A stretch of DNA of 64,000 bases, taken from NCBI RefSeq assembly GCF_032191465.1, contig NZ_JAQOUE010000001.1:868001-932000 (forward strand). The letters are read 5' to 3'. Below, one piece after another: positions 1 through 45,629 of this stretch. The position numbers were made by a program, and so were the translations under genes. The notes below the pieces were generated by a model. That model was given only the letters and a program-made list of their open reading frames with translations, was not told the origin of the DNA and did no database searches. Numbering within the stretch: position 1 is the stretch's first letter; each line of letters starts with the position of its first letter. The stretch comes from Candidatus Nitronereus thalassa (lineage in GTDB: Bacteria; Nitrospirota; Nitrospiria; Nitrospirales; UBA8639).

Positions 1-2966
1 AACTCCGATTTAGTCCGTCCCGCCACCGGCGATCCAACCAGAATATCATCTTGCCCTGATAACCGAGACAGTAATACCTGCAAAGCAGACAACAACACGA
101 CATACAACGTAGTTCCCTGTTGCCTTGCTAAGGTGTGTAATTTTTGAGTGAGCGATGCAGAAAGCCTAAAGGAATGGGTAGCTCCTTCGACATTATGGTC
201 TGACGCTCGCGGGTAATCCAAAGGTAGCGGCAGGACGGGAATGGCTCCATGGAGTTGCTCACGCCAATACTCCCACAACCGTTCACCATCTGGGCCAGTT
301 AGACGATCAGCTTGCCACCGGACAAAGTTGGAATAGTTCGACCCCACAGGCTCAAGGGAGGATTCGCACCCATGTTTTTCAGCGACATACAGTTGGCGAA
401 GTTCGTCGACCAATATCGACATGGACCACATATCCATCACCAAATGATGGACCGCGATGAAAAGAATGGCTTCCTGATCCCCACGACAAAACACGTGCAC
501 TCGAAACACAGGCCCGTGCTCTAAATCAAAGGGTCGATACGCCTCCTCTTCAAGCCTCGCCTGAAACACTTCAGGAGAATCTTCAGAGGCATCAATGAGA
601 TTAAACATTTCATCGTGATACGGTCCCACCGTTTGCCGAAGAAGTCCTCCTGTTTCCAGAAAGGTAGTTCGCAACACGGAATGTCGAGCAATGAGGGTCT
701 GTACGGCCTTCTGAAAAGCCGGTACGTCGAACGCACCAGATACCCGGGCGGTAAAACGAATTTGATAGACATCGATTTCTGGTTGTTCTCGCTGAAGGAT
801 CCAAAGTCCTTGTTGACCATAGGAAAGCGACTCGTCAGGGATCATGGGTGGGGAATCTTGACCCGGGCTGACAGTCCCTTCAAAGGACACATCTCTCTGA
901 ACCATGCGCTGATGAGATGGAACGGTAAGGCCATCAGCAGCAGAATAATTTATTTGGCATTCAATCTCGTGAGCTAACTCATTGAGGGAAACTTCATCCA
1001 TCAACAGAGAAAACGGCACCATCACTCCGAAACCTTTTTCAATATGCTGTCTGAGGGAAAATAGCATCAAGGAATCCAATCCAAGCGTCACCAGTTTTTC
1101 ATGGACAGGCACATTGTGAGTACTCTGGTGAAGAAGGCGGGCAAGGATGTATTGAAGGTGGTCCTGAATTGTTGCCCTTCGATCCTTGGTCGAAAGGGTG
1201 AGCAGTTCATGCACCGAGAGATGAACCGCCTCCTCTGTGGTACTGGAGGGACTCACTCTATTCTCGACAATGACGTGCAATTGTCCAGCCAGATAGGCCT
1301 GACGACAAGCCTGACGTTGGACCTTGCCGCTGGACGTTTTGGGAATCGTTCCTGCACGCACCAACACGACTGCCAAGGTGTGAAGATGATGTTCCTCAGC
1401 CACGGATCGTCGAATAGTCTCAACGATTTTATCCGTGTCTTGTCCTTTCCCCTCACGCCTGAGTTCTTGCACGATGACGAGTTTTTCTTCGCCATCTTGT
1501 TCAATGGAGAACGCAATTCCCGCTCCTTGGCGCAAAGATTCATGACTCCGTTCAACGGTACGTTCTATATCCTGCGGATAAAAATTGCTGCCGCGGATAA
1601 TGATGAGATCTTTCAATCGCCCGGTGACAAACAACTGGTCATCACGAAGGAATCCGAGATCACCTGTACGCAGGAATGGACCCTGCAGCCTATCAGCCAG
1701 AAAAGCGTTATAGGTATGGGTGGTTTCCTGTTCCCGATTCCAATATCCTTTCGCGACACTGGGACCAGCCACCCAAATTTCACCCACTGTGCCAGAGATA
1801 CACGGGTGCAAGGTGACTGGATCCACGATCTCCACCTTCATCCCGAAATCAACTCGCCCACTCCCCACAAGAGCTTTGCCCAAAGGATCATTGGATTCCA
1901 CCTCCAGAACCTGATTCATTTCCAGTGCCTGAGAGCTAACCGTGATGGTGGGAGGAATCTCCGACTTTGGCTTCGCTGACACTTTCAAGGTAGATTCCGC
2001 TAACCCATAGGCCGGGCAAAAGGCTGACCACTTGAATCCCTGGGAGGCAAAGTTTTTGGCAAACCGACTCAGGGTTGAATGACGAACTGGTTCAGCTCCG
2101 CAATAGGCCAATTCCCATGTCGATAAATCTAATGAAAATCGTTCTTCAACTGAAATACTGTTGGCACACATGTCATAAGCGAAATTGGGGCCACCACTAT
2201 GCGTGGCTCGATAGTGGGATATGGCGTGAAGCCATCGTAGAGGACGTTGCACAAACGACTGAGGAGACAAGAGGATCCCTCGACACCCTTGAAAAATTGG
2301 CTGAAGAATCCCATTCACCAAACCCATATCGTGAAAATGGGGAAGCCAAGAGACTAATATACTTTGAGGAGTGTATTCGCATCCCTGCTCAATATAAGCG
2401 AGATTATGAAACACATTTCCATGAGTCACCATCACGCCCTTGGGTTGAGATGTGGAACCGGAGGTGTATTGCAGATAGGCCAGACTGTCTTCCTTTATGG
2501 TTGGCAGGGTCCAATGCTCTTGCAAGTCTTCCGACAGTGCATCGGTGGGCAGCCAGATCAATGAGGAATTTTGTCCAGCATCCTTCTCTTGACCTTTCAA
2601 TTTCGAAATCACATGTTTCGTCGAGAGAATAGACTTCGCCCCAGCATCATGAAGAATCGCCTCCAGTCGAGAAAAGGCTCGGCGGAATCCCAGCAATGGA
2701 ACTGGAACGGCTACCGCCCCAGCATAGAGACAACCGAAAAAAGCGGTAATAAATTCCAGCCCCGGCGAAAACACAAGGAGGACTCGCTCTCCAACCAACT
2801 CTAACTTCTGCAACTGCGCGGCAATGGTCTTGGCTTGGGAATCCAATTGTGCGAAGGAGATGTGCGCCGACTCTTCCTCACCGTCACCAAGAAAAGTCAG
2901 CAAAGGCTTACACCCCTGCTTCTCTGCCCTGACGCGCAGCAGTTCAACCAAATTGTCCGATTTCAT
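1..2966 (-). CDS. Partial NRPS: fatty acyl-AMP ligase - carrier protein - condensation domain (3' end beyond window)
   Basis: An uninterrupted frame runs from the ATG at 2966 to the left edge (988 codons) with no stop, so the gene continues outside. Residues 1 to about 580 form a fatty acyl-AMP ligase (FAAL) domain: the AMP-binding motif YTSGSTSQPKG starts near residue 167, followed by the FAAL-type WLPHFHDMGL segment. A carrier domain follows, with the phosphopantetheine serine in LGLDSL at residue 632. A condensation domain starts near residue 705, with active-site HHLVMD at 840-845. This order is that of lipopeptide initiation modules, where a fatty acid is activated as acyl-AMP, loaded on the carrier and joined to the first amino acid. 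The start follows the stop of the upstream sugar-transferase fusion by 11 bases, so the genes are probably cotranscribed. The glycine usual after HHxxxD is methionine here. The family is certain; the product is unknown. Confidence 0.9.
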   Translation of the reverse strand, partial: MKSDNLVELLRVRAEKQGCKPLLTFLGDGEEESAHISFAQLDSQAKTIAAQLQKLELVGERVLLVFSPGLEFITAFFGCLYAGAVAVPVPLLGFRRAFSRLEAILHDAGAKSILSTKHVISKLKGQEKDAGQNSSLIWLPTDALSEDLQEHWTLPTIKEDSLAYLQYTSGSTSQPKGVMVTHGNVFHNLAYIEQGCEYTPQSILVSWLPHFHDMGLVNGILQPIFQGCRGILLSPQSFVQRPLRWLHAISHYRATHSGGPNFAYDMCANSISVEERFSLDLSTWELAYCGAEPVRHSTLSRFAKNFASQGFKWSAFCPAYGLAESTLKVSAKPKSEIPPTITVSSQALEMNQVLEVESNDPLGKALVGSGRVDFGMKVEIVDPVTLHPCISGTVGEIWVAGPSVAKGYWNREQETTHTYNAFLADRLQGPFLRTGDLGFLRDDQLFVTGRLKDLIIIRGSNFYPQDIERTVERSHESLRQGAGIAFSIEQDGEEKLVIVQELRREGKGQDTDKIVETIRRSVAEEHHLHTLAVVLVRAGTIPKTSSGKVQRQACRQAYLAGQLHVIVENRVSPSSTTEEAVHLSVHELLTLSTKDRRATIQDHLQYILARLLHQSTHNVPVHEKLVTLGLDSLMLFSLRQHIEKGFGVMVPFSLLMDEVSLNELAHEIECQINYSAADGLTVPSHQRMVQRDVSFEGTVSPGQDSPPMIPDESLSYGQQGLWILQREQPEIDVYQIRFTARVSGAFDVPAFQKAVQTLIARHSVLRTTFLETGGLLRQTVGPYHDEMFNLIDASEDSPEVFQARLEEEAYRPFDLEHGPVFRVHVFCRGDQEAILFIAVHHLVMDMWSMSILVDELRQLYVAEKHGCESSLEPVGSNYSNFVRWQADRLTGPDGERLWEYWREQLHGAIPVLPLPLDYPRASDHNVEGATHSFRLSASLTQKLHTLARQQGTTLYVVLLSALQVLLSRLSGQDDILVGSPVAGRTKSE

Positions 2967-23411: not shown

Positions 23412-24044
23412 TTATATGGCCCAATTTCCTGAAGCCACACTCTGCACGGTTTTGTTCTCAACAGGATTTTCTTTACCAGGAAATACCTGATCAATAATTT
23501 GTTCAGGGAGATAGTTGAGGCCAATCAAACATTCAAGAATTTCCTTAAGGTTGGCTTCTGGAGTATCCAAATCGGTATGCACGACTAATTCTGGATTATC
23601 TGGTGGCTCATAAGGATCTGACACCCCGGTAAAATTTTTGATCTCTCCCCGACAGGCTTTGGCATACAACCCTTTGACATCACGATCTATACATTTTTGC
23701 AAAGGGCAATTAACATAAATTTCTACAAATTTTCCAATTTCAGTTCTTGCTCGATCTCGCGTTTCGTGAAAGGGCGAAATGGCTGCAACGATAGGAATCG
23801 CGCCAACCTTGGTTAATAATTTTGCCACGTATGCGATTCGTCGAATATTTTCATCTCGATCTGCCTTTGAAAATCCTAGCCCTTTCGTAAGACGTTGACG
23901 AATTTCGTCCCCATCTAAAATCACTACAGGAAGACCTGCTTCCTCTAAACTCTGGCATACCAAACGGGACAACGTACTCTTACCTGAACTCGGAAGTCCG
24001 GTTAACCAAATTGTAAAACCACTGTTTAATTTCATGTCTCTCAT
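23412..24044 (-). CDS. cysC: Adenylylsulfate (APS) kinase
   Basis: 210 aa from the ATG at 24044, which has AAGGAG seven bases upstream; an ATG at 24065 would add seven residues. It has the P-loop GLPSSGKST, LDGDEIRQRL, GFSKADRDENIRR and the APS-kinase block FTGVSDPYEPP. The enzyme phosphorylates APS to PAPS, the universal sulfate donor. It lies 98 bases downstream of a sulfotransferase gene, so the pair forms a local sulfation unit. ATP sulfurylase is not in the window and must be supplied by general sulfate metabolism. Confidence 0.95.
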   Translation of the reverse strand: MRDMKLNSGFTIWLTGLPSSGKSTLSRLVCQSLEEAGLPVVILDGDEIRQRLTKGLGFSKADRDENIRRIAYVAKLLTKVGAIPIVAAISPFHETRDRARTEIGKFVEIYVNCPLQKCIDRDVKGLYAKACRGEIKNFTGVSDPYEPPDNPELVVHTDLDTPEANLKEILECLIGLNYLPEQIIDQVFPGKENPVENKTVQSVASGNWAI

Positions 24045-24142
24045 GTCATTCTCCTTTTTCTCCATCTCGAATATACTGAATGGAGGAAAGCTAAGTACCT
24101 TAAAAAATAGATTTCTTCCTGAAAATACCTTCTTATCCCCTT

Positions 24143-25072
24143 TTAGGACATAGGCGTTTCAGGTTTCATTGCCTGGAATAATAATCCTAGTTCATACCGC
24201 CGTTTTGCTTCTTCCTCACTATCAGTTTCACCAGATTCAATGGCATCGTACCCACATTCGAGAAGGGAAGGATTAACAATCAGCGCCAGATCGGCCAACG
24301 TGGGTGAAGAAAACTTTCTCCATCGACCAACGCTTGTGGTCTCGATCTGAGACTTGGAAAATGTTTTCCAGTCACTAAAACCTTGAGAGTCTTTATGATG
24401 CATTGCACGAGAGAGAAGGCCCGAATCCCACGGTTCTCCAATAAAATCGAGCACACGGCGCATCTCAGCTTCCGGATTTGCCACTAAATCTTCATATCGA
24501 AGTTCAAGAGAGTTCTCCTGATGCAAGGCAACAAATTTCCGAAGATCTCTCGTTACATCCACCCAGGCATGGCAAAACGCTTCAAGCGGTCGTGGATATT
24601 GTCTGACATAGTGATATAACTCAGAAAAATACACTTGGGATTTATCACACCAATCCATCATGCTACAGGCCACATCCATACCATGCCGGGTAATGCAAAT
24701 AAATAAAGCATGGTCGCCGAACAAACGACTTATTTCATTGATATAAAACGCATCGACGGCTGTCTTTTCGACCCATCGAGCTTTACCTTCACGGGCCGCG
24801 TGTTGACGTCGAAAAGTAAAGGCGAATTCTCGCAGTCGGTCGAGAACCTCCTGTGTTTCAAAACCGGCATAACCAAGCCCGTTGAGCACCCCGACATTCA
24901 TACCATCAACCGCTCGATCGCTATGCAGAAAGCGAGCACAGGCCGTCAGAATATGGGTTTCCCCCGGAGCGGCGATATTGGAATGCGCATTTAACAGCCT
25001 CCGGAGTAAAGTCGTTCCGGAGCGAGGGCATCCCAAGATTATTATTCCCTCGTATTTCCTGTTTCTTTGCAT
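24143..25072 (-). CDS. PAPS-dependent sulfotransferase
   Basis: 309 aa. The 5'-phosphosulfate-binding loop is ILGCPRSGTTLLRRLL near the N-terminus, and the 3'-phosphate block is CITRHGMDVACSM near 130, with LRYEDLVANPEAEM and GEPWDSG further on. This is the Sulfotransfer_3-type fold found in bacteria that sulfate glycans or lipids. With cysC directly downstream, it probably adds sulfate to the polysaccharide or its precursor in the cytoplasm. It lies next to the carrier protein of the acylation system, so both decorations may be co-regulated. The acceptor is inferred from context. Confidence 0.92.
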   Translation of the reverse strand: MQRNRKYEGIIILGCPRSGTTLLRRLLNAHSNIAAPGETHILTACARFLHSDRAVDGMNVGVLNGLGYAGFETQEVLDRLREFAFTFRRQHAAREGKARWVEKTAVDAFYINEISRLFGDHALFICITRHGMDVACSMMDWCDKSQVYFSELYHYVRQYPRPLEAFCHAWVDVTRDLRKFVALHQENSLELRYEDLVANPEAEMRRVLDFIGEPWDSGLLSRAMHHKDSQGFSDWKTFSKSQIETTSVGRWRKFSSPTLADLALIVNPSLLECGYDAIESGETDSEEEAKRRYELGLLFQAMKPETPMS

Positions 25073-25099: not shown

Positions 25100-25360
25100 T
25101 TAGTGGGAGCCGTTTTTGCCATTAGCCCGTATCTCAGTAAAAGTCAGAATACGACTGACCGAATCCAGGTTATCAAGATTCACCTCTGCCGGTTTAATCT
25201 TGATTCCACATTGTTTTTCAATAAAAAGCACAAGCTCCACCATAGTAAATGAATCAATCAACCCAGATGAGATCAGCGCCATCTCCGCCTCAATTTGGTT
25301 TGGGGCCATGTTGATTTTATTTCCCAAATAATTCAGTAACACATCTCGTTCTAAGGTCAT
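25100..25360 (-). CDS. Acyl/aminoacyl carrier protein (DltC-like)
   Basis: 86 aa from the ATG at 25360, preceded by GAAGGTG; the longer frame to 25378 uses a TTG. The phosphopantetheine attachment serine is in SGLIDSFTMVELV at about residue 38, the standard DSx2 context after a turn. Helices I-IV fit the carrier fold. It is 171 bases downstream of the adenylation gene at 25532, and in this setting would hold the activated amino acid or acyl group as a thioester for the MBOAT at 27162. A general fatty-acid ACP is less likely given the length, neighbours and lack of FabD/FabH genes. Confidence 0.9.
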   Translation of the reverse strand: MTLERDVLLNYLGNKINMAPNQIEAEMALISSGLIDSFTMVELVLFIEKQCGIKIKPAEVNLDNLDSVSRILTFTEIRANGKNGSH

Positions 25361-25531
25361 TTTATTAATCACCTTCAAGCTAAATTTTTAATAATGTGAG
25401 AAGGCAAGGAGTGCGTCACAAACGCAAACCAAATATCGACTACCAACAAAAGGTTTTTGTCATTTTGCTAATACGAGGCCAGCCCAAATTCGATGGTTCT
25501 ACTTCTGGCGGGTTAAACCTTAGGTCTTCGA

Positions 25532-27154
25532 TCAAGCGACTTGCGGGGAATACTCATTACTTTGCAGTAGATTTGCTAAGGCCTTACGGTCCACTTTTTC
25601 ATTTGAATTTAGCGGCAGGATTGCCAGTGTATAGACGCGTCGAGGTACCATATAGTCTGGAAGTTGTTTTTTGGCCGTCTCAAGGATGGCTTTCACATCG
25701 GCTTTAGGGGTCTCTAGAAAAGCCACAATGCCCTGAGCCCCATCAGCGGTGATAGGCCACCCAAGCGCAACCGCCCGATCCACTCCAGCCGCGACCCTTA
25801 AAATAGCCTCAACTTCACCCAACTCGACTCGTAACCCGCGAATTTTTATTTGATAATCGATACGACCAAGATACACGATTGGCTCTCCATCCTTTGGACG
25901 ACGAACCAAATCCCCGGTCCGATAAAAGATATCCTCAGAGCCTGGTGGCCGAAGAAATGCTTGTGAAGTTTTATGAGGATTATTCCAATATCCTAGCGCC
26001 ACTTGAGGTCCAGACATAAGAAGCTCTCCGGTCTCACCTTTATTGACTTCTTCTAAAGACTCGTCCACAACCATCGCCCTCATTCCTGGAAAGGTTTCTC
26101 CAATAGGCACAACCCCGTTTTCGCAGTCCTGATGCGAGGACTCTCCCCTCCAACGATACAACGTACATGCCAACGTCACCTCCGTGGGACCATAGAGATT
26201 TTCTAGAATTGAATTGGGCGAGGCCTTCTGCCAAGCGTCAGCAACACTCGCCGTTAACGCTTCCCCACAAAACAAACTCAAACGTAGACTTGGGAAAGCC
26301 CCACCCTGAAGGAACCCAAGTTGTTTCATGAGTACTGCTACAGAAGGCACTGAAAACCATACCGTAATATTTGATTCCAACAGATAGTTTGCTGGAGAAA
26401 ACAAATGCTGGCTGGAAGGATTGCACACACAACCACCAACTTTCCACGCCATGAACATATCAAACACTGAAAGATCAAAACCCATGTCGAACAATTGTGA
26501 AAATCGGTCTGTCTCATTCAGCCGATAACGCTCCTGCATCACTTCTAAAAACCGAGCCACATTTCGGTGTGAAACCATGACCCCTTTCGGAACCCCTGTA
26601 CTACCTGAGGTAAAGAGTAAATATGCGATTGTGTCGGCGTCAGGGATAGTGGGTTCACACAATTCCTTTTGCGTACAGTCATTTAAACCGAGGACAATAT
26701 GTTGGGGAAACTTTGTCACCAAATCGGCAACATCCTGACGCTCGGGGAAAATCAAAACGAGTTGTTCCTCGATTCCTTTCAAGACACTATCGAGTTGCTT
26801 CTCCCCCATTGCATCAATAATGACTGCCCTACAACCTGCCTGGGTAAGCATTGAACGTGTTCGATCAGCTGGAAATTTCGGATTGAGTGGTACATATCCA
26901 TGCCCACGAAGTACAGCCGCCAATACTCCTGAAAACGCCGTGATAGAGTGATAGGCGAAAACAGCTGTCAGAGGAGGCTCAGTGGAATTGAAGTATGCGT
27001 GCATCGTAGTCGCAAGTGACGCGGCACGGTGATATAAATCGTGATAGGTCAGCACTTGCCCATCACTCTCAAGGGCGGGACGATCAGGATACTTCTGCAG
27101 GGATGTCAAAAAGCCACTGCCAAGCCAATGGTTGTCGTTATTCATATCGCTCAC
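25532..27154 (-). CDS. Stand-alone amino-acid adenylation enzyme (DltA-like ligase)
   Basis: 540 aa, a free-standing ANL-family A domain with no carrier or condensation part. Motifs: A3 LLFTSGSTGVPKGVMVSH, A4 FDLSVFDMF, A5 LYGPTE, A7 YRTGDL, A8 RGLRVELGEVE and the C-terminal lysine in NEKVDRKAL. My manual code at the ten specificity positions reads D-L-F-F-L-C-L-L-A-K. The cysteine lies in FCGE, the same block that holds the D-alanine-selecting cysteine of DltA, so a small or D-amino acid is plausible. The GTG start gives a 7-base gap from the MBOAT gene; an in-frame ATG at 27145 is the alternative. It would load the carrier protein at 25100. Role firm, substrate inferred. Confidence 0.9.
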   Translation of the reverse strand: MSDMNNDNHWLGSGFLTSLQKYPDRPALESDGQVLTYHDLYHRAASLATTMHAYFNSTEPPLTAVFAYHSITAFSGVLAAVLRGHGYVPLNPKFPADRTRSMLTQAGCRAVIIDAMGEKQLDSVLKGIEEQLVLIFPERQDVADLVTKFPQHIVLGLNDCTQKELCEPTIPDADTIAYLLFTSGSTGVPKGVMVSHRNVARFLEVMQERYRLNETDRFSQLFDMGFDLSVFDMFMAWKVGGCVCNPSSQHLFSPANYLLESNITVWFSVPSVAVLMKQLGFLQGGAFPSLRLSLFCGEALTASVADAWQKASPNSILENLYGPTEVTLACTLYRWRGESSHQDCENGVVPIGETFPGMRAMVVDESLEEVNKGETGELLMSGPQVALGYWNNPHKTSQAFLRPPGSEDIFYRTGDLVRRPKDGEPIVYLGRIDYQIKIRGLRVELGEVEAILRVAAGVDRAVALGWPITADGAQGIVAFLETPKADVKAILETAKKQLPDYMVPRRVYTLAILPLNSNEKVDRKALANLLQSNEYSPQVA

Positions 27155-27161
27155 ACTTTTC

Positions 27162-28379
27162 CTAATGAAGTGGATTCAGCCCTAAATTATATCCCAGTAG
27201 TTTGGCAAATACCCGCAACCCCGTCCATCCGCCATAGCCAGAAGTTGCCGAAAAGGCATAGCTCCCGGTTACAAACGCGAAGGTAAACGGCACACCAACA
27301 TACTTCCAGGAATTCCCCAATACCGTGTGCCATCCTCGACTTCGTTTAATTCTTCCCCAAGTCAAAAATATGGAAACTCCCGTGGCATGATAGGCCCCCC
27401 ACAATATCCAGTTCGATGTGGCCCCATGCCATAACCCCATTGTGAGGAACGTACTGTAAACGGCTGCATAAGGGCTTCGGGTCAGCCCTATTGTTGGTAA
27501 ATAAATATATCGCTGAATCCAACCCACTAGCGTCATATGCCACCGCTTCCAGAATTCACCAATGTTACTGGCCAAAATCGGAAAGTTGAAATTCTCCATG
27601 ATGCGAAACCCATAGAGCCGACTTGCACCAATGGCAATATCAGAATACGCACTAAATTCGATGTACGCATACAAAAAGGTTAAGGCCAAATACCCCCACA
27701 CCTCATGGGTCTGCAAACTGGTTAAATGCGAAATTAGGTCCAAAGGAGTAAGCACGCTCCCCCCCGTCACCCACGGCTGAAGAAGTTGAGCAATAAACAG
27801 CTTCCCAATAACAAACAGCTTGATGAGCCCATATACGATTCGCGTAGCACCCTCAACCATTGACTGCCGTTGCCACGAGTCCTCGCGGTTAGCCAAGAAG
27901 TGATCAAAGCGTTCAATTGGTCCGGCGGTGAATATCGGATAAAGAAATATATAACAGAAGAATCGCGATAACGAACGATCGGTAATGTTACCCCGTACGA
28001 CTTCTACTGCATAATGAATCAGTTTGAACGTAAAGTAACTGATTCCTAGAGGGACAATCGGACTCTTTAAAAATTCCAGAGTAGGGAACAATCCTACCAG
28101 GATGGGAAAGTATTTGTAGTAAAAGAGATACCCGAGTATGGCGAGGATTAATGCTGGCACGATCAACCGGGTCGGCTGTTTTTCCGTCATTGCATGAGGC
28201 GTCACATAGAAAAACACCAGAATCCACGCAATTAACACCGTCACCGCGACTGGCTCGATCGAGGCCAGGTAGGCATAGGAAGCCAGCGCAAGAAAGCCAG
28301 CACGGAACTTCAGCGGAAGAAACCAGTAGATAAGAACCGTGCTAAAGAGTAGCAGCCAAAAGTTTGAAGTCTGTATCAT
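27162..28379 (-). CDS. Membrane-bound O-acyltransferase (MBOAT; DltB/AlgI-like)
   Basis: 405 aa, the length of DltB, with about ten hydrophobic segments. MBOAT marks are FWKRWHMTL (His281) and GLWHGATSNWILWG (His318, the expected catalytic histidine), plus YAYIEFSAYSDIAIG. It sits in the inner membrane and passes an acyl group from a cytoplasmic carrier thioester to an acceptor on the outside. The flanking genes give the whole path: adenylation enzyme and carrier downstream, and a microprotein with an FxYxxF tail ending 21 bases upstream. Its own C-terminus (GYNLGLNPLH) has no acyl-shuttle motif, so the shuttle is supplied in trans. Confidence 0.93.
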   Translation of the reverse strand: MIQTSNFWLLLFSTVLIYWFLPLKFRAGFLALASYAYLASIEPVAVTVLIAWILVFFYVTPHAMTEKQPTRLIVPALILAILGYLFYYKYFPILVGLFPTLEFLKSPIVPLGISYFTFKLIHYAVEVVRGNITDRSLSRFFCYIFLYPIFTAGPIERFDHFLANREDSWQRQSMVEGATRIVYGLIKLFVIGKLFIAQLLQPWVTGGSVLTPLDLISHLTSLQTHEVWGYLALTFLYAYIEFSAYSDIAIGASRLYGFRIMENFNFPILASNIGEFWKRWHMTLVGWIQRYIYLPTIGLTRSPYAAVYSTFLTMGLWHGATSNWILWGAYHATGVSIFLTWGRIKRSRGWHTVLGNSWKYVGVPFTFAFVTGSYAFSATSGYGGWTGLRVFAKLLGYNLGLNPLH

Positions 28380-28400
28380 ATAAAAATCGTTGAAATAGTG

Positions 28401-28532
28401 TTAGAAACCCTGATATCTAAAAAGCCTCACGCCAGCAGCGGTCGATACCAATTCACATAAGGCTATAAAGAGGAACACTCCCATGACAAATCCTTGCAAG
28501 GAGACACCAAAAACATAGGCAAATTTTTTCAT
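28401..28532 (-). CDS. DltX-like single-TM microprotein 1 with C-terminal FRYQGF
   Basis: A 43-codon gene, ATG at 28532 with TTGAGG about 8 bases upstream, TAA at 28401. The protein has a basic start (MKKFAY), one helix of about 20 hydrophobic residues (roughly 9-30), and ends in GVRLFRYQGF. By the positive-inside rule the C-terminus faces the periplasm. The last six residues fit F-x-Y-x-x-F, the C-terminal hexapeptide of DltX whose tyrosine carries D-alanine from DltB to DltD. It lies between an SGNH gene and the MBOAT gene, where such a protein would work. Its paralog at 30204 shares 29 of 43 residues with 14 synonymous codon differences at those positions, strong evidence that both are translated. 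The function is inferred from motif, topology and neighbours. Confidence 0.85.
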   Translation of the reverse strand: MKKFAYVFGVSLQGFVMGVFLFIALCELVSTAAGVRLFRYQGF

Positions 28533-28679
28533 TAGGGTAACCTCAACTACGTGGGCCTTTGAAAACCGTGTCGAACAAACTGGAATTCGGAATCATGACA
28601 CCCTTATCCGAAAGTAACGATGGTACGCCAGCCCCTATACACTACCGTTACCCGCGGCGTTGGAAGGCAATTTTGGCCA

Positions 28680-29870
28680 TCATCTCTGAAGAGTTGCAGC
28701 CGGTTCAGTTAATTTTGCAACCATTTCCTTCTCGGTTATAACCTTTGCTACTTGCGAGGCGATGGCTTGCGTGCAGCGTTCTCTTGCCTCACGACTACGA
28801 AGGTGCCCCGCATAATCGCGGAAGTCATCGGGGAGAAACTCTGTTGCCTTATTAACAGATAAAAACGACATCCGTTGCTCAGTGGCAAATTGACGAAGGT
28901 CATTCGTGTACCTCTTGAAGAATTCCCTACCCTTGGGTTCGTCATACCACAACGGATTGATGGGACCTTGCAGTAGGATAAAGGAGGCACCATTACCCTG
29001 TCCTCTTAACTTGGCAACTATCTGTCCAATAATGCCCAGATTAGCCTGCTTATTGGATTCATAGAGAGTCGATGCCTTGGAAAGGTATGATTTCTTCCGC
29101 TCTTGCCCTAAGGCTTCCAACCGTTTGCTCTCCGTCATCCAAGAAACGTCCAAAGGGTCGCCATAAGGCTGGGGACCCCTGAAGAGCAAATTGAGGATGG
29201 CAGAAGAAAGCCGAGGTAAGATAAAACGCCAATTGTCGATGAAGTAAATACCTGTCCTATATGGCACATTCATACCCCAAGACCTGGATTCGCTGTCCAA
29301 CACCTCAGATGTTAACCCTACATGGGGAAATTCCCCGATAGTTTCTAATAACGCTCGAGTTTCGTTTGATAAGACTGGCGGAGCTACTCCAAAAACCACG
29401 ACACCTCTAAATTCAGCAGGAAGGTACTCCGCAAATGTTGCCCACTCCCAGGAGATAGTTCCATCTGCACTCATATCATAAACAATGGGGGCTGGCCTCT
29501 TTAGCTTTGCCGCAACCATTCCACCGAGGCGCTCTTCACTGCTAACACACCGAACTGTCACAGAATCCCCTAGGATCACGAGATCCGGAGGTTTAGAACG
29601 TCGTAAACGCAATGCCTTGGCCGTGACGATTAACTCACTGTCGTATGGATCCTTCATGAGGTAACGATGCAGGGGACCCGCAACAAAATCAGGAGTTACG
29701 TAAAGACAAAGGCCACCAAAAGCAAAGGGAGTTACAGAGAGTGTGATCACCCAAGATAAAAGGGTGGGCCGAGTAGCACCATTCCAAAATTCTGACCAGC
29801 AATCACATAACCAGCTCTTGCTCCGTTCATCGGAATTGCCCAAAGTAGGACTTTCTGCTTTTTTCAACAT
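28680..29870 (-). CDS. SGNH-fold periplasmic acyltransferase/esterase 1 (DltD-like)
   Basis: 396 aa. One N-terminal membrane helix (about 37-58) anchors a periplasmic domain. VILGDSVTVRC gives the nucleophile Ser103 of the SGNH block I; the conserved DYAGHL (D352, H356) near the C-terminus is the likely Asp/His. GIYFIDNWRFILP and GPINPLWYD are shared with the paralog at 30506. DltD uses a serine to take D-alanine from the DltX tyrosine and pass it to teichoic acid; by analogy this protein would acylate an exported glycan. Its microprotein gene follows 147 bases downstream. Sequence similarity to true DltD is not obvious, so the role rests on fold motif and context. Confidence 0.82.
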   Translation of the reverse strand: MLKKAESPTLGNSDERSKSWLCDCWSEFWNGATRPTLLSWVITLSVTPFAFGGLCLYVTPDFVAGPLHRYLMKDPYDSELIVTAKALRLRRSKPPDLVILGDSVTVRCVSSEERLGGMVAAKLKRPAPIVYDMSADGTISWEWATFAEYLPAEFRGVVVFGVAPPVLSNETRALLETIGEFPHVGLTSEVLDSESRSWGMNVPYRTGIYFIDNWRFILPRLSSAILNLLFRGPQPYGDPLDVSWMTESKRLEALGQERKKSYLSKASTLYESNKQANLGIIGQIVAKLRGQGNGASFILLQGPINPLWYDEPKGREFFKRYTNDLRQFATEQRMSFLSVNKATEFLPDDFRDYAGHLRSREARERCTQAIASQVAKVITEKEMVAKLTEPAATLQR

Positions 29871-30203
29871 ATATATGAACTCGATCTAACAATTCAGTGC
29901 GATTCATGAAATCCTCTAATCGTCCAAAACCTTCAAGGTTCACCGGCCGTGGGAACAATACATGTTAAATTTATTCCGAAGTCTTATTTTTTATTTAACG
30001 GGAACTGCATCAAATTTTCCCACTCCAATTGTGAAACTTTAACTCTGATACTAAACCCCTACGTTGTAGAATTTTCGACATGTAACTCTGAATAACGTTT
30101 TATGACTTCACCAACCTGAAGGGATGTTCCATCAGATTACAGCCAACAAATGCCTATTAATTGTGAAGAGCATTCCGAATTGTGGATAATAAATAAAAGT
30201 TAG
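29871..30203. other. 333-base AT-rich intergenic region between duplicated cassettes
   Basis: Separates microprotein 2 (ends 30204) from SGNH protein 1 (starts 29870). It is AT-rich and without a supported reading frame. It marks the boundary between the two SGNH-microprotein units and could hold a promoter that lets the downstream unit be expressed separately. I see no convincing promoter or terminator. Confidence 0.35.
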
Positions 30204-30335
30204 CTAGAACCCTTGATATCTAAAGAGCTTTACTCCGCTAGCTGTAGCAACTAATTCACAAAAGGCAACAAACAGGAGCACCCCCAAGACAAAGCCTCGA
30301 AAATATACCCCCAATAAATAAGCATAACGTTTCAT
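30204..30335 (-). CDS. DltX-like single-TM microprotein 2 with C-terminal FRYQGF
   Basis: A 43-codon gene, ATG at 30335 with GAGG 8 bases upstream (same spacing as its paralog), TAG at 30204. It starts MKRYAYLLG, has one membrane helix (about 7-30) with GFVLGVLLFVAF, and ends GVKLFRYQGF. The tail is identical to microprotein 1, and CELV near the helix end is also kept. The gene lies 170 bases downstream of the second SGNH gene, the same order as the first pair. It is the presumed acyl shuttle for the protein at 30506. Too short for most gene callers, it would usually be missed. Confidence 0.84.
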   Translation of the reverse strand: MKRYAYLLGVYFRGFVLGVLLFVAFCELVATASGVKLFRYQGF

Positions 30336-30505
30336 TATTACGACCTCACAAAGCGGACATGTTTTACTCGTGAAACGAACCAGTAAGGGAAAGAGAGGAC
30401 AGACTAAAACAAATTCTCTTTTAGTTTCATGGAAAGCGTTAGAAAGATTTAGGGAAATGTTCTCTCCAACATCTGAGAGCTTCTTCCTACAACTAGTGGA
30501 TTACT

Positions 30506-31642
30506 TTAACTCAGATTTTTGACTAAACCATCGCGCTGGGACACCATTTCTTTTTTGGTCATTACCTTTACTACTTGGGTAGCTATGGCTTCTGAACATC
30601 GTTCTATAGCTTCCCGATTATCGAGGTGCCCCTCATAATCCATAAAGTCCGCAGGGAGGAGAGCGGCTTGCATAGTCGCCGACAAAAAAGACATCTCATG
30701 CTTAGCAGCAAATGTTTTTAGTTCGCTATGGACTTTTTTAAAGAACCTCTCAGCACCGTGTACGTTATTCCAAGCTGGATTGTAAGGCGCTTCCATCAGT
30801 ATAAAAGAAGCGTTACTACGTTTTCGAAGATTGACAACAATACGTTGAATGACATCAAAATTTATATTTTTATTCAATTCGTATTCCTGCATTAGCCATG
30901 GCAAATCATCAATCTCTTGCTCTATGAAATTCTGCCTATCAGGGCTCTCAGGCTTATTGACATCATCAAAGATATCACCAGTAGGTTGAGCTCCAGTGAC
31001 AAAAAGATTACGGGCAATAAAATATCGCCGCGCCGAAAGAAATCGCCAATTATCAATAAAGTAAATCCCCGTCCGTGAGGGACCACTCAATCCAGAAAAC
31101 CCCGCTTCTTGTTCGAGGGCCTTAGACAAAAACCCTAGTCTGGGATTGGCCACAATATCTTTCAATTCTTCAACACCATAAGACAACAAACCTGGACCTA
31201 TTCCGATGATCAGTACTCCATCAAATTGCGGTGGCAATTTCTCGACAATTGCAGCCATCTCCCATGAAGTCTGTCCAGGCACGCTTAAATCAAAAACGGC
31301 AGAAGGGGCCTTTCCCATTTTACTAGTGACCATTCTGGCAAGACGCTCTTCACCTGCAACACAGTGCACAGTCAGTGAATCCCCGAGAACGACAATGTCT
31401 GGAGTTTCAGATTTCCGGATAGACAGAATCTTAGCCGTGCTGGATACATTGCGGTCCCACGGATCCTGCATTAGATAGTGATGACCATCTCCCATCATAA
31501 AGGCCGGTGTAATCAAAAGACTTAAACTGAAGAACACGATAAGGTTCAAAGAAATGACTATGACGAGAGAAGTCAGGGAAGGTCCAGTCACTCCACAAAT
31601 AAAATTACCCCAACAATCACGTAACATTTTCAGGCCTTTCAT
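30506..31642 (-). CDS. SGNH-fold periplasmic acyltransferase/esterase 2 (DltD-like)
   Basis: 378 aa and a paralog of the protein at 28680. A membrane helix (about 23-45) is followed by HHYLMQDPWD, VVLGDSLTVHC (Ser89), GIYFIDNWRF, GAQPTGD and DYEGHL (D335, H339), in the same order as the paralog. The N-terminus has two candidate starts, ATG at 31642 and ATG at 31627. It presumably accepts an acyl group from microprotein 2 and transfers it to the polymer in the periplasm. It is the first gene of the acylation unit in transcription order. The acceptor site may differ from that of the paralog, which would explain keeping both. Confidence 0.82.
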   Translation of the reverse strand: MKGLKMLRDCWGNFICGVTGPSLTSLVIVISLNLIVFFSLSLLITPAFMMGDGHHYLMQDPWDRNVSSTAKILSIRKSETPDIVVLGDSLTVHCVAGEERLARMVTSKMGKAPSAVFDLSVPGQTSWEMAAIVEKLPPQFDGVLIIGIGPGLLSYGVEELKDIVANPRLGFLSKALEQEAGFSGLSGPSRTGIYFIDNWRFLSARRYFIARNLFVTGAQPTGDIFDDVNKPESPDRQNFIEQEIDDLPWLMQEYELNKNINFDVIQRIVVNLRKRSNASFILMEAPYNPAWNNVHGAERFFKKVHSELKTFAAKHEMSFLSATMQAALLPADFMDYEGHLDNREAIERCSEAIATQVVKVMTKKEMVSQRDGLVKNLS

Positions 31643-41028: not shown

Positions 41029-42219
41029 TCAGACAAAAGAATAATCGCCATCACAAAGGTCAACTTCAATTTCATTCACCACTTGAGCTAAGGGGCTATT
41101 TTTATGCTCTGGTCGACAAACATACAGATGCTTAATTTCGGATAATAAAAACCTGGATATCCCATGTGTCATAAAAAATGTCGACAATTTAGGTGAAATA
41201 ACGATCGCATCAACATTAAATTTTGCCGCCTGTTGCAAAACAGCAAGAAAGATCACCGACAAATCGCAATGCTCTTCCAATTTAAAATCTAACACTTTTA
41301 TTGTAGCATTCCCCCCTTCAACGCTAAGAGATACCAGGAGGAACCCTAGGAACCGTTCCTTACAAGAAGAATAAATCAATAAAGGTTTTATTTGAAAATG
41401 CTCTCGGACTCCACGAAAATGATAATTGTCGTATGAAACGTCAATTTCATCTTTACTAAAAAGCCACTGGTATTGAATTTTCCAATTGATCCATTCAGGT
41501 CCCCGGTAAAATTCCGCCGTGGACTGTTGGACATTACGAGGAAACCTTTCAGGAGGAATGGCTGTAACGGTTTCACAATAAATACTGTGCAGTTCTCTAC
41601 GGAATACCCATAAAAGCAGCTTGAAATATCCCTTTTTTGTCCGAGAGTAGATCCGCCCCTTCCACTTCCCAACAACCCGCCTTACAATAGATGACAACCC
41701 AAAACGAGTGGCACCCCTTAAATTAGCAACTCGCTTCTCAAGGAAACACAAAATTGGATCAATCCAATTCAGTTTATTCACATTCACGACAAAAACACTT
41801 CGCGGCCCTAATGGGCCAATTAGTCCGAGCCCCCTCCATACCTTCTCAGCCATTTGGCTCATTTCAGCGCCAACTAAATCAATCTTGAGAGACAACAAAT
41901 TTTTGATTAACAACAGACCAATCCCAGCCGTTCTATATTGCGGGGCAACATAAAATGTCGAAGCCCAAAATACCTTAGAGAATTCCTCGCCATTTCTGAG
42001 CAATCCTGGAATCAACCCAATATATCCAGCGCAACGGCCATTAAGATAGGCCACGATTAATCCAACATCCACCGCATCAGCATAGGGATTTTTCGCCTGA
42101 GCAATAGCTAAGTGCTTGGTAATTGGAATGACCCCAGAGTCTTTTTCCTTTTCGATAATGCTATCTGCGAACTCAACGAGTTCCTTAACTTTGACTCTAT
42201 CAATTTGTATATCTTGCAT
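41029..42219 (-). CDS. GNAT-fold acyltransferase, double-length
   Basis: 396 aa, more than twice a single GNAT domain. The N-terminal half has the GNAT acyl-donor pattern FWASTFYVAPQYRTAGIGLLLIKNLL (shown here in separate parts: FYVAPQYRTAGIG is the loop that binds the acyl-carrier pyrophosphate). The C-terminal half may be a second, degenerate GNAT domain (LLVSLSVEGGNATIKVLDF). It lies directly downstream of a carrier protein and adenylation gene. It may transfer the group made by that module, possibly pyrrole-2-carboxyl, to an amino sugar. This is inference; acetyl-CoA is the default donor for the family. Confidence 0.7.
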   Translation of the reverse strand: MQDIQIDRVKVKELVEFADSIIEKEKDSGVIPITKHLAIAQAKNPYADAVDVGLIVAYLNGRCAGYIGLIPGLLRNGEEFSKVFWASTFYVAPQYRTAGIGLLLIKNLLSLKIDLVGAEMSQMAEKVWRGLGLIGPLGPRSVFVVNVNKLNWIDPILCFLEKRVANLRGATRFGLSSIVRRVVGKWKGRIYSRTKKGYFKLLLWVFRRELHSIYCETVTAIPPERFPRNVQQSTAEFYRGPEWINWKIQYQWLFSKDEIDVSYDNYHFRGVREHFQIKPLLIYSSCKERFLGFLLVSLSVEGGNATIKVLDFKLEEHCDLSVIFLAVLQQAAKFNVDAIVISPKLSTFFMTHGISRFLLSEIKHLYVCRPEHKNSPLAQVVNEIEVDLCDGDYSFV

Positions 42220-42454: not shown

Positions 42455-42706
42455 TTAACTTGCGTCTTGTTTCTTTTCGAGGAAACCCACAATATTATTG
42501 ATTGTCTCAAAATTTTTGGGAATGACTTCACCATCACCTACTGCAACTCCGAATTCCTCTTCAAGAAAACGTATCAACTGAATAAAGGCTAGGGAATCCA
42601 GGATTCCTAGAGTATACAAATTTTCGTCATACCCTAATTCGCCCATACTACCATCGCTAGTAGTTTTATCTAGTAAAAATGTCTTTAATTTTTCTTCGTT
42701 GTTCAT
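42455..42706 (-). CDS. Peptidyl carrier protein (PltL-like)
   Basis: 83 aa from the ATG at 42706; a GTG two codons earlier is possible. The phosphopantetheine serine is in LGILDSLAFIQLIRFLEEEF. In size and position it matches the free-standing carrier of pyrrole-2-carboxylate pathways (PltL, RedO, CloN5), and its partners, a prolyl-AMP-ligase-like enzyme and an acyl-CoA-dehydrogenase-like enzyme, lie directly upstream. It would carry L-proline and its oxidised pyrrole product as a thioester. Confidence 0.88.
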   Translation of the reverse strand: MNNEEKLKTFLLDKTTSDGSMGELGYDENLYTLGILDSLAFIQLIRFLEEEFGVAVGDGEVIPKNFETINNIVGFLEKKQDAS

Positions 42707-42837
42707 GCACACAACCCTTTCCTAGAAATTTCAGGTTCAACAACTTTCTTGATAAGGCTCTACGGCAAGATATGCATTCTATTATCATGAGCCCTTCGCA
42801 AAAATGAAATTGTTATGTTTGTAAATCAACTGTGATT

Positions 42838-44433
42838 TTACACACAGGCTAACAGAGGGCGATTGATTTTCCCTGTGGAGGTTTTTGGTAAATCTTGGCA
42901 CAACTCAATACTCTCTGGAATCATATATCGCGGAAGACATTTCCAACAGTGAGTTTCAATTTCTTTACCTGCGAGTTCCGTTCCATCCATTGGCACGACA
43001 TAGGCTTTCAATCGATTTCCAATAAGTTCATCGGGAATCGCAACCACGGCGACTTCTTTAACTCCCGGATAATGATACAGGGCCGATTCAATCTCCCCCA
43101 GCTCAATGCGATATCCCCGAGATTTGACCATATGGTCATTTCTTCCGATAAACTCCCAGTTAACACCATCTTGGTCCAGCATTACGATATCACCGGTTTT
43201 ATACGCTAGATCCGTAAAGTTTTCTTGAAACGAATTATTGATAAACCGTTGCGTGGTCTTTTCCAAATCTCCCCAATATCCATGAGCAAGACATGCCCCT
43301 CTTACCCAAAGCTCACCTCTCTCCCCTGGTTTCGTCACTTTTTGTCCATCATCATTTACGGCGAAGACCTCAATGTTCTCACATGCAATTCCTATCGGAA
43401 GCGGTCGCCTTTGATCAGGATAGACATCCCTACCTTGCACCTTATAATAAGTACATACATTAGTCTCAGTAGGACCGTACAAATTGTAAAACTCCGCTCG
43501 GGTAAGTTTTTCCGTTAACTTTCGTAAATATTTAATAGGAAAAACCTCTCCTGCAAATAAAACCATTCGCACTCTCGTAAGATCATGGGTATCAAGTTCT
43601 CCATAATTCACCATCATAGAAAGTATCGACGGCACAAGATAAACTACCGTAATTTTTTCTGATTCTAACAATTCAACTAATTGAACCGGGAATACCGAAA
43701 GATTTTCAGGGACAATGATAATTGTTCCACCCGCCATGATAGTCACAAAAATTTCAAACGTAGATAAATCAAAATGAAGTGGCGCATGGAAAGGGATTCG
43801 ATCATTTTCGGTAATTGAGAATTTTTCATAGCACCAGTTTAAAAATGTAAATATAGCCCTATGGGAAACCATAACTCCTTTAGGATGCCCCGTTGAACCA
43901 GAGGTATACAGAATGTATGCTAGATCTCCATCTATTGATTCAGTGCACATGACCTGTCTATCACTTTTAGATTGGACGACAGACCAAGGTATAATTTGAA
44001 GAATTCCTTTTAGTGGAATTTCTTTTCCTTGTTTACAGTTGGCCATTAATATTACTGATTGAAGGGAATGTGAGTCTGCCACAATTTCCTCAATATTTTT
44101 CAACTTCTCAGGAGTAGAAAGAAGTATTTTTATTCCACAATTGTTAAGAATATAGGACAACCGTTGTGCAGGCGCACTTGGATCTATGGGGACATAGACA
44201 GCCCCTGATTTCAATACGCCAAAAGTCGCAATTATTGATGCTAGAGATTTAGAAACAAATATTCCCACCCGATCTCCACGCCGAACTCCCAAGTCGAGCA
44301 GCGTTTGTGCAACTTTGTTGGTAACCTGATCCACCTCTTGATAGGTCAAAGTTGCCCCCTGAAATCGCACGGCTTCTTTATCAGGAAATCGCCGAGCACT
44401 ATTTTGCAGCAACTGATGTAAAAGATAGGCCAC
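42838..44433 (-). CDS. Stand-alone adenylation enzyme, likely L-prolyl-carrier ligase (PltF-like)
   Basis: 531 aa, ANL superfamily. Starts at a GTG preceded by GAGGTGAT; the frame has no upstream ATG before a stop. Motifs: A3 ILYTSGSTGHPKGVMVSH, A4 FDLSTFEIF, A5 LYGPTETN, A7 YKTGDI, A8 RGYRIELGEIE and C-terminal STGKINR. Aligning by eye to GrsA, the specificity residues are D-L-F-Y-L-A-L-V-C-K, nearly identical to the proline code of PltF/RedM-type ligases (D-L-L-Y-L-A-L-V-C-K as I recall it). It would load L-proline on the carrier at 42455. The code and the neighbouring dehydrogenase support each other; a database comparison is still needed to fix the substrate. Confidence 0.9.
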   Translation of the reverse strand: MAYLLHQLLQNSARRFPDKEAVRFQGATLTYQEVDQVTNKVAQTLLDLGVRRGDRVGIFVSKSLASIIATFGVLKSGAVYVPIDPSAPAQRLSYILNNCGIKILLSTPEKLKNIEEIVADSHSLQSVILMANCKQGKEIPLKGILQIIPWSVVQSKSDRQVMCTESIDGDLAYILYTSGSTGHPKGVMVSHRAIFTFLNWCYEKFSITENDRIPFHAPLHFDLSTFEIFVTIMAGGTIIIVPENLSVFPVQLVELLESEKITVVYLVPSILSMMVNYGELDTHDLTRVRMVLFAGEVFPIKYLRKLTEKLTRAEFYNLYGPTETNVCTYYKVQGRDVYPDQRRPLPIGIACENIEVFAVNDDGQKVTKPGERGELWVRGACLAHGYWGDLEKTTQRFINNSFQENFTDLAYKTGDIVMLDQDGVNWEFIGRNDHMVKSRGYRIELGEIESALYHYPGVKEVAVVAIPDELIGNRLKAYVVPMDGTELAGKEIETHCWKCLPRYMIPESIELCQDLPKTSTGKINRPLLACV

Positions 44434-44480
44434 ACATCACCTCATATTGTGCACGTAAACCTTAGAAGCTACTTCATGTA

Positions 44481-45629
44481 TTAGAGCCCTAACCATTTTG
44501 CAATAATTACTCGTTGAATATCTGATGTACCTGAAGCCAATGTACCACCAAGAGCATCTCTGAGGTCACGTTCAACCTCATACTCGGAGAGATATCCATA
44601 ACCACCATGGACTCTGATGGCATCGAGACCAGACTGAACAAAACATTCACTCAAGTATAATTTGGCAATCGCGGCTTCCATTACCGCGGACTTTTTCATC
44701 TTTTTTAGCCACGCGACTTTGTACAACATAAGTCGAGCCGTCTCCAATCGCACCTTCATATCGGCAATACGATTTCCCACAGATTGAAACTTTCCAATAG
44801 GCTGATTAAACTGTCGTCGTTTCTGTGCGTATTGGATGCACGTTTCCAGTTGCCGCTCCATGGTCCCAAGACAACTCGCTAAAATAAAGCTACGCTCCCA
44901 TTCCATCGAATGATTAAAAATTCCAACACCAGCTCCCTCTGGTCCTAATCGATTTTCTTCTGGCACAAAGCAATCCTGAAATGTTAATTCCCCCATGGGA
45001 TGAGTTCGAAGGCCCATTTTTTCCAATTCTCTGTTAATCACAAAACCAGGACTTCGGGTATCAACAATAAAAGCGGTTACTCCTCTTATTCCCTGTGAAG
45101 GATCAACAGTCGCAAAGACCACGGCAATATCCGCTATAGGGGCACTGCCAACAAAAGTTTTTGTTCCATTAAGAATATATCCTTCATTTCGCTTTTCCGC
45201 TTTGGTAGATAAACTATAGGCATCTGAACCTGAATTTGGTTCTGTCATGCCATGCGCCGCAATTAACTTTCCATTACATAAATCTGGTAAGTATTTTTCT
45301 TTTTGCTTCTCAGACCCAAAAGTGAGAATAGGAAGTTGCACACTCCACATTTGAGCATTCAAGGCAAAAATAAGTCCATTATCATGACAACCATATCCCA
45401 GGGCTTCCATTATGGCCGTAATGGCTACAATATCAACATTTTGTCCACCATATTCTGTTGGTATGGGTAAACCTAAAATGCCAAATTGAGCACATTTCTC
45501 CCAATTTTCACGAGAAAATTCTCCATTTTTTTCTCGCTCTCTTAATCCAACATTTAACTCTTTTTGTGCAAATCTAATTACCTCATCTCGTTTTAAGGGC
45601 GAAAGGTCTTCGTTCAAAGAGAAATCCAT
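44481..45629 (-). CDS. Acyl-CoA-dehydrogenase-fold enzyme, likely L-prolyl-carrier dehydrogenase (PltE-like)
   Basis: 382 aa, flavin-dependent fold with MTEPNSGSDA (FAD/acyl site), GTSDIQRVIIAKWL at the C-terminus and MERQLETCIQYAQKRRQF. The blocks SAPIADIAVVFAT, MEWERSFILA and MERQLE strongly resemble PltE, the enzyme that oxidises prolyl-carrier protein by four electrons to pyrrolyl-2-carboxyl-carrier protein. Fatty-acid oxidation is unlikely, since no thiolase, hydratase or CoA ligase lies near. It is 47 bases upstream of the prolyl-ligase gene, so the two are translated together. Confidence 0.88.
   Translation of the reverse strand: MDFSLNEDLSPLKRDEVIRFAQKELNVGLREREKNGEFSRENWEKCAQFGILGLPIPTEYGGQNVDIVAITAIMEALGYGCHDNGLIFALNAQMWSVQLPILTFGSEKQKEKYLPDLCNGKLIAAHGMTEPNSGSDAYSLSTKAEKRNEGYILNGTKTFVGSAPIADIAVVFATVDPSQGIRGVTAFIVDTRSPGFVINRELEKMGLRTHPMGELTFQDCFVPEENRLGPEGAGVGIFNHSMEWERSFILASCLGTMERQLETCIQYAQKRRQFNQPIGKFQSVGNRIADMKVRLETARLMLYKVAWLKKMKKSAVMEAAIAKLYLSECFVQSGLDAIRVHGGYGYLSEYEVERDLRDALGGTLASGTSDIQRVIIAKWLGL

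Follow-up and report, generated by a model that had tools for sequence, protein, structure and literature searches.

A putative Dlt-type trans-membrane acylation module with separate FxYxxF microproteins in a polysaccharide locus of Candidatus Nitronereus thalassa

Trans-membrane acyl transfer of the type considered here is known from the D-alanylation of teichoic acids in Gram-positive bacteria. In this process, the Dlt system combines a carrier-bound donor with the microprotein DltX, whereas PatA-type systems use an acetyl-CoA donor and a motif fused to the membrane-bound O-acyltransferase (MBOAT); the acyl-tyrosine on the FXYXXF motif of DltX and PatA is the mechanistic precedent, and MBOAT pathways other than Dlt are said to be without such a microprotein (PMC12148441). 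In a BLAST search of 2017, dltX was detected in 809 species, of which 805 were Firmicutes (PMC5541007), and dlt genes are also present in Dickeya, Pectobacterium and Photorhabdus, with an unknown substrate (PMC3544676). Here we describe seven genes on the minus strand of a 64,000-nucleotide stretch of Candidatus Nitronereus thalassa (Nitrospirota; contig NZ_JAQOUE010000001.1, positions 868,001 to 932,000), hereafter the window, that in all likelihood (a probability of about 0.83) represent a Dlt-type trans-membrane acylation module in the polysaccharide locus of a diderm bacterium.

The genes lie in the order SGNH2, microprotein 2, SGNH1, microprotein 1, MBOAT, adenylation enzyme and carrier, exactly where a first-pass annotation of this DNA had placed a unidirectional set of one carrier, one adenylation enzyme, one MBOAT, two microproteins and two SGNH proteins. 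The Dlt-like mechanism that it proposed is supported, as there is a Dlt-type component for every step and the same module is kept in relatives. Shared with Gram-positive Dlt (DltXABCD) are counterparts of the five component types, SGNH1 being the candidate counterpart of DltD by its best fold match, along with the FxYxxF microprotein, the DltB fold of the MBOAT, and a predicted carrier-bound donor. Unlike that system, however, the window module scores far below the equivalog cut-offs, is found in a diderm polysaccharide locus and has a different adenylation pocket; its SGNH-microprotein pair is tandemly duplicated (28680-31642, minus strand) beside a single MBOAT gene, and its relatives have other donor enzymes.

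The microproteins are each 43 amino acids long, with one hydrophobic helix and a C-terminus ending in FRYQGF-stop. They are 67% identical to each other, the nucleotide differences numbering 7, 6 and 23 at the first, second and third codon positions, respectively, and both open reading frames (ORFs) are preceded by a GAGG Shine-Dalgarno-like site. Among 20 aligned microproteins, the sole invariant residues are F38, Y40 and F43. Spurious ORFs are ruled out by the Shine-Dalgarno sites, the codon-position bias and the conservation, and the two single-helix microproteins with an FxYxxF ending that the first-pass annotation had picked out are thus confirmed as real genes. The characteristics of a DltX-type microprotein, namely the C-terminal motif, the single helix and the position beside the MBOAT, are all present. 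Neither microprotein matches any Pfam or NCBIfam family, a sequence search of the PDB with microprotein 1 as the query returned no match, and a profile comparison with Listeria DltX gave an alignment confined to the C-terminal motif.

When 84,980 species genomes were scanned using the MBOAT as query, 14 loci at 42-56% identity were retrieved, from Parabeggiatoa, Hydrogenedentota, Phycisphaerales and other Planctomycetota, Magnetococcales, Octadecabacter, Halioglobus, Sphingomonas, Caulobacteraceae and a gammaproteobacterial metagenome-assembled genome. The first-pass annotation had suggested searching genomes for MBOAT genes with a small FxYxxF ORF nearby, and 13 of the 14 relatives were positive, the small ORF ending 0-47 nucleotides before the MBOAT gene. 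The SGNH gene is mostly upstream of the microprotein, with an adenylation domain and carrier nearby, and a sulfotransferase homologue adjoins the module in L053, L057, L058, L060 and L063. In the window and the 14 relative loci taken together (320 kb, 5583 ORFs of at least 30 codons), 15 ORFs end in F.Y..F-stop, against an expectation of 0.13. All 15 are on the strand of the MBOAT gene and 14 are at most 64 nucleotides upstream of the MBOAT start used, the remaining one being the second SGNH-microprotein unit of the window. A chance origin of the motif is ruled out by this excess, and because 13 of the 14 relatives, which span several phyla, keep both position and motif. Genomes sampled from the genus and the family to which the window belongs lack the module, which was therefore probably gained horizontally. 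In the case of Sphingomonas aerophila (L061:8810-11188), the SGNH and MBOAT genes each have one in-frame stop, reflecting decay or sequencing error, and the microprotein is intact.

Two classes of MBOAT can be distinguished: split MBOATs of about 400 amino acids, which are motif-free and have a separate microprotein, and fused MBOATs of about 450-550 amino acids, whose own C-terminus reads FIYFxF or similar. The two fall on opposite sides of one branch (support 100/99) in an unrooted tree with Listeria DltB on a long branch, and the window MBOAT, at whose C-terminus a fused motif was looked for and is absent, clusters with its relatives at 98/93 support. Of 24 split MBOATs, 16 have both an adenylation enzyme and a carrier within 8 kb, as against 0 of 63 fused ones; these counts include short contigs as well as related genomes, such that the p-value is not one for independent events. 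Separate microproteins go with carrier-bound donors, and the fused motif goes without them. This contrast argues that the carrier and adenylation enzyme belong to the MBOAT system, answering in favour of the first-pass annotation its own reservation that they might serve another pathway, and it is in line with how Dlt and PatA-type systems differ in the literature, suggesting that the Dlt side reaches well past the Dlt equivalogs. PatA/PatB and AlgI/AlgJ-type O-acetylation likewise pair an MBOAT with an SGNH partner and have FxYxxF as the proposed acyl shuttle, but there the MBOAT itself carries the motif, at a C-terminus with two extra helices, and the donor is acyl-CoA, with no adenylation enzyme and carrier nearby, whereas the window has its motif on separate microproteins and both donor genes after the MBOAT. 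MBOATs of Patescibacteria/Peregrinibacteria (L065:4143-5420, L066:9872-11155 and L076) are accompanied by a DltX-like microprotein ending in MFIYNNF (IFIYNNF in L076), neither an adenylation enzyme nor a carrier being present within 8 kb.

The MBOAT is the sole match to PF03062 in the 4.0-Mb genome (65.8 bits, cut-off 27). Its one NCBIfam match is DltB (TIGR04091), at 143.9 bits and below the equivalog cut-off of 375, and its closest PDB entries are the DltB structures 6bug and 8jem (sequence E 4e-26, fold E 3e-13). The histidines of the WHG and RWHM motifs are invariant, that of WHG being present in all of 32 aligned MBOATs. An AlphaFold2 model in which microprotein 1 was read through its stop and a linker into the MBOAT, as one chain with a 32-row alignment, has a mean predicted local distance difference test (pLDDT) score of 88.1 and the DltB fold as its best match in the PDB. 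A plasmid search for close relatives of the MBOAT found none.

For the SGNH proteins, the first-pass assignment stands by fold and by catalytic residues, but not by sequence, where Lipase_GDSL_2 scores are below the cut-off and no DltD family match is found in Pfam or NCBIfam. The catalytic Ser (GDS), Asp and His are kept in all 14 family members. The AlphaFold2 model of SGNH1 (pLDDT 87.7) has DltD as its top PDB fold (Foldseek E 7e-5; VIA Z 13.4 over 261-274 residues). Scores almost as high are reached by other SGNH folds, but over about 190 residues only, and an hhalign comparison with DltD gave a weak match (E 0.023). The SGNH identity is thus firm by fold and the invariant Ser, Asp and His, and weak by sequence.

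The adenylation enzyme exceeds the amino-acid adenylation cut-off (TIGR01733, 344 bits, cut-off 317) and falls short of that for DltA (TIGR01734, 271 bits, cut-off 559.85), with 29% identity to Listeria DltA. The carrier similarly scores 21.8 bits against DltC (TIGR01688, cut-off 52.35), with 31% identity to Listeria DltC over 45 amino acids, and its weak top NCBIfam match is an ornithine-lipid acyl carrier protein (ACP); an internal ATG at 25360 is a possible alternative start. The specificity code of the enzyme is DLFFLCLL(A/C)K, with the amino-acid Asp235 present and an alignment-dependent ninth position. By comparison, the Halioglobus enzyme (L060; 38% identical) has DLFLLCIV(S/C)K, and Listeria DltA, by the same method, has DLMVLCTVVK, the Asp-Leu and Cys301 positions being common to DltA and the window enzyme. 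The activated acid is likely to be a small or hydrophobic amino acid, and D-alanine is possible, the pocket code being suggestive.

Other relatives have TIGR03098-like ligases as donor enzymes, and in four loci (L053, L056, L057, L058) a pyridoxal-phosphate (PLP) decarboxylase, TIGR03099-like where tested, is beside the MBOAT-microprotein-SGNH core. In butirosin biosynthesis, the chemistry of BtrI/J/K is established and is the precedent for a ligase and decarboxylase acting on a carrier-bound amino acid, and by analogy this set could decarboxylate such an amino acid to gamma-aminobutyric acid or beta-alanine. The exosortase-A-associated acyl ligase/PLP decarboxylase set (TIGR03098/TIGR03099) accompanies the core in several relatives but is absent beside the window module, where the enzyme is DltA-like and a decarboxylase is lacking, the one PLP decarboxylase gene of the genome being outside the locus. 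Because other relatives use the ligase/decarboxylase donor set, the core resembles a platform on which donors can be exchanged. Tentatively, then, the SGNH-microprotein-MBOAT core may be a general export platform for carrier-bound acids, with donor enzymes that differ among bacteria and perhaps include those for pyrrole-2-carboxylate here.

In the proposed mechanism, the acid that the adenylation enzyme would activate and load on the carrier is most likely a small amino acid. On the cytoplasmic side, the MBOAT would accept the acyl group from the carrier, and it would esterify the tyrosine of the FRYQGF tail, which would enter the MBOAT from the periplasm. The acyl-tyrosine, whose chemistry we infer by homology with DltX and PatA, would swing to the active-site serine of the membrane-anchored SGNH protein, and this protein would move the acyl group onto a sugar hydroxyl of the exported glycan. 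The tandem SGNH-microprotein pair would probably serve two acceptor sites, or may represent a simple duplication, both units being fed by one MBOAT.

Several observations weigh against this scheme. In the tethered model, the microprotein tail (residues 35-48) has a pLDDT below 50, and the artificial tether makes its placement uninformative. No protein of the module attains a Dlt equivalog cut-off, and the catalytic Asp-His spacing of the window SGNH pair (DYAGH/DYEGH) is one residue longer than the DxxH of the relatives. There is no adjacent microprotein at the L055 MBOAT or at the second MBOAT of L056, and to these may be added the relatedness of the genomes in the split/fused comparison. Lastly, it is the gene neighbourhood that suggests the glycan exported by the adjacent genes as the acceptor.

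The genome encodes LptD, indicating a host with an outer membrane, and the cluster around the module contains NeuB (nonulosonate), a CMP-sugar transferase, glycosyltransferases and a Wzm/Wzt-type exporter. The APS kinase listed in Table 1, which like the sulfotransferase is downstream of the module, likely supplies the sulfate donor. Elsewhere on the minus strand, 42455-45629 encodes a carrier, an adenylation enzyme whose code, DLFYLALVCK, is that for proline, and a prolyl-carrier dehydrogenase resembling PigA/RedW (429 bits against PigA, cut-off 500). Together they are predicted to form a pyrrole-2-carboxyl-carrier cassette within the glycan cluster; a GNAT-like protein is encoded beside it (41029-42219), and a literature search on pyrrole-2-carboxyl polysaccharides found nothing relevant. 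The polysaccharide cluster is directly bordered by large non-ribosomal peptide synthetase (NRPS) genes with a 2913-amino-acid open frame (window 1-2933 and continuing to the left, G000:C1:859508-870933, minus strand), and the genome totals nine AMP-binding and nine carrier domains.

Table 1. Genes of the module and its immediate neighbours in the window.
Feature	Coordinates	Strand	Description
SGNH2	30506-31642	-	Membrane-anchored, SGNH acyltransferase-like; paralogue of SGNH1 (43% identity)
Microprotein 2	30204-30335	-	Putative DltX-like shuttle; C-terminus VKLFRYQGF-stop
SGNH1	28680-29870	-	Membrane-anchored SGNH protein; proposed DltD-like final acyltransferase
Microprotein 1	28401-28532	-	Putative DltX-like shuttle; C-terminus VRLFRYQGF-stop; 21 nucleotides upstream of MBOAT
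MBOAT	27162-28379	-	About 405 amino acids; DltB-like; C-terminal motif absent; PF03062
Adenylation enzyme	25532-27154	-	Stand-alone, amino-acid type; PF00501, TIGR01733; proposed donor loader
Carrier protein	25100-25378	-	PF00550 above cut-off; Ser in GLIDSF
Sulfotransferase	24143-25072	-	PF13469; part of conserved neighbourhood
APS kinase	23412-24065	-	PF01583, 204 bits; context

An alternative to a distinct family is that the locus is an ordinary, horizontally acquired Dlt operon that puts D-alanine onto lipopolysaccharide or capsule, as has been suggested for Dickeya and Photorhabdus. The order SGNH-X-MBOAT-A-C is that of dltD-X-B-A-C on an Enterobacter plasmid, DltB and DltD are the top folds, and the one NCBIfam match of the MBOAT and the Asp-Leu and Cys301 positions of the pocket also point this way. 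However, this alternative seems unlikely given scores far under the DltA, DltB and DltC equivalog cut-offs, an adenylation code unlike that of DltA at most pocket positions, and the clustering of the MBOAT with relatives whose donor enzymes are mostly un-DltA-like. It would surprise us greatly if the adenylation enzyme and carrier instead served a siderophore, NRPS or lipid pathway, with the MBOAT and SGNH proteins forming a separate acyl-CoA acetylation system: the gap between the MBOAT and adenylation-enzyme genes is 7 nucleotides, and the same donor pair recurs by split MBOATs in many phyla and by no fused one, although an NRPS is next to the window, AMP-binding and carrier domains are numerous in the genome, and acyl-CoA is used by other MBOAT-SGNH systems (PMC12148441).

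Two further alternatives concern what is carried and where it is delivered. A single MBOAT that also exports pyrrole-2-carboxyl, with one donor per SGNH-microprotein pair, would fit a cluster in which donor cassettes and such pairs both number two, and in which the second adenylation domain has a proline code and adjoins the prolyl-carrier dehydrogenase. This is very improbable, as some 11 kb lie between the module and the second cassette, the adjoining GNAT-like gene could effect transfer in the cytoplasm, and such a pairing is seen in none of the examined relatives. That the acceptor is a lipid or lipid-linked precursor, and not an exported polysaccharide, is suggested by the weak match of the carrier to the ornithine-lipid ACP, but is improbable when set against periplasmic SGNH partners with a DltD-like fold, which point to an extracytoplasmic sugar or polyol, and a locus that is a glycan export cluster.

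As judged from family cut-offs, the window module would work like Dlt but outside of Dlt membership. The novelty of Dlt in a Gram-negative bacterium implied by the first-pass annotation was overstated, because Gram-negative dlt genes are known and the gene order recurs in Enterobacter cloacae. There, the conjugative IncHI1A/IncFIB plasmid pGX1Z-1L (PLSDB; L133:3502-7554) has a complete dltD-X-B-A-C between insertion sequence elements, and a 40-amino-acid 'hypothetical protein' between dltD and the MBOAT gene is DltX-like and ends in HFEYQKF, showing that the microprotein exists in Gram-negative Dlt too. It seems to have gone unnoticed in the literature examined, though Schultz et al. 2023, on the DltX mechanism, may mention it. 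Gram-negative dlt operons, including that of the plasmid, share with the window a host with an outer membrane, but the plasmid differs in an adenylation enzyme of about 27% identity, in an MBOAT with WNG in place of WHG, and in its setting between insertion sequences and not in a glycan export cluster. What is new is that the family is distinct and occurs in Pseudomonadota, Planctomycetota and Hydrogenedentota, that its donor enzymes appear interchangeable, and that a separate microprotein goes together with a carrier-bound donor.

The DltX acyl-tyrosine shuttle is thereby extended to that family, with a testable rule in which a separate microprotein indicates a carrier-bound donor and a fused motif an acyl-CoA donor. 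The relatives also suggest a candidate function for the unexplained exosortase-associated ligase, decarboxylase and carrier genes. Amino-acyl esters are predicted on capsules or exopolysaccharides, where they would alter charge and would be easily lost in alkaline work-up, and if the core is indeed a platform for different donors, surface polysaccharides would bear acyl groups so far unreported there.

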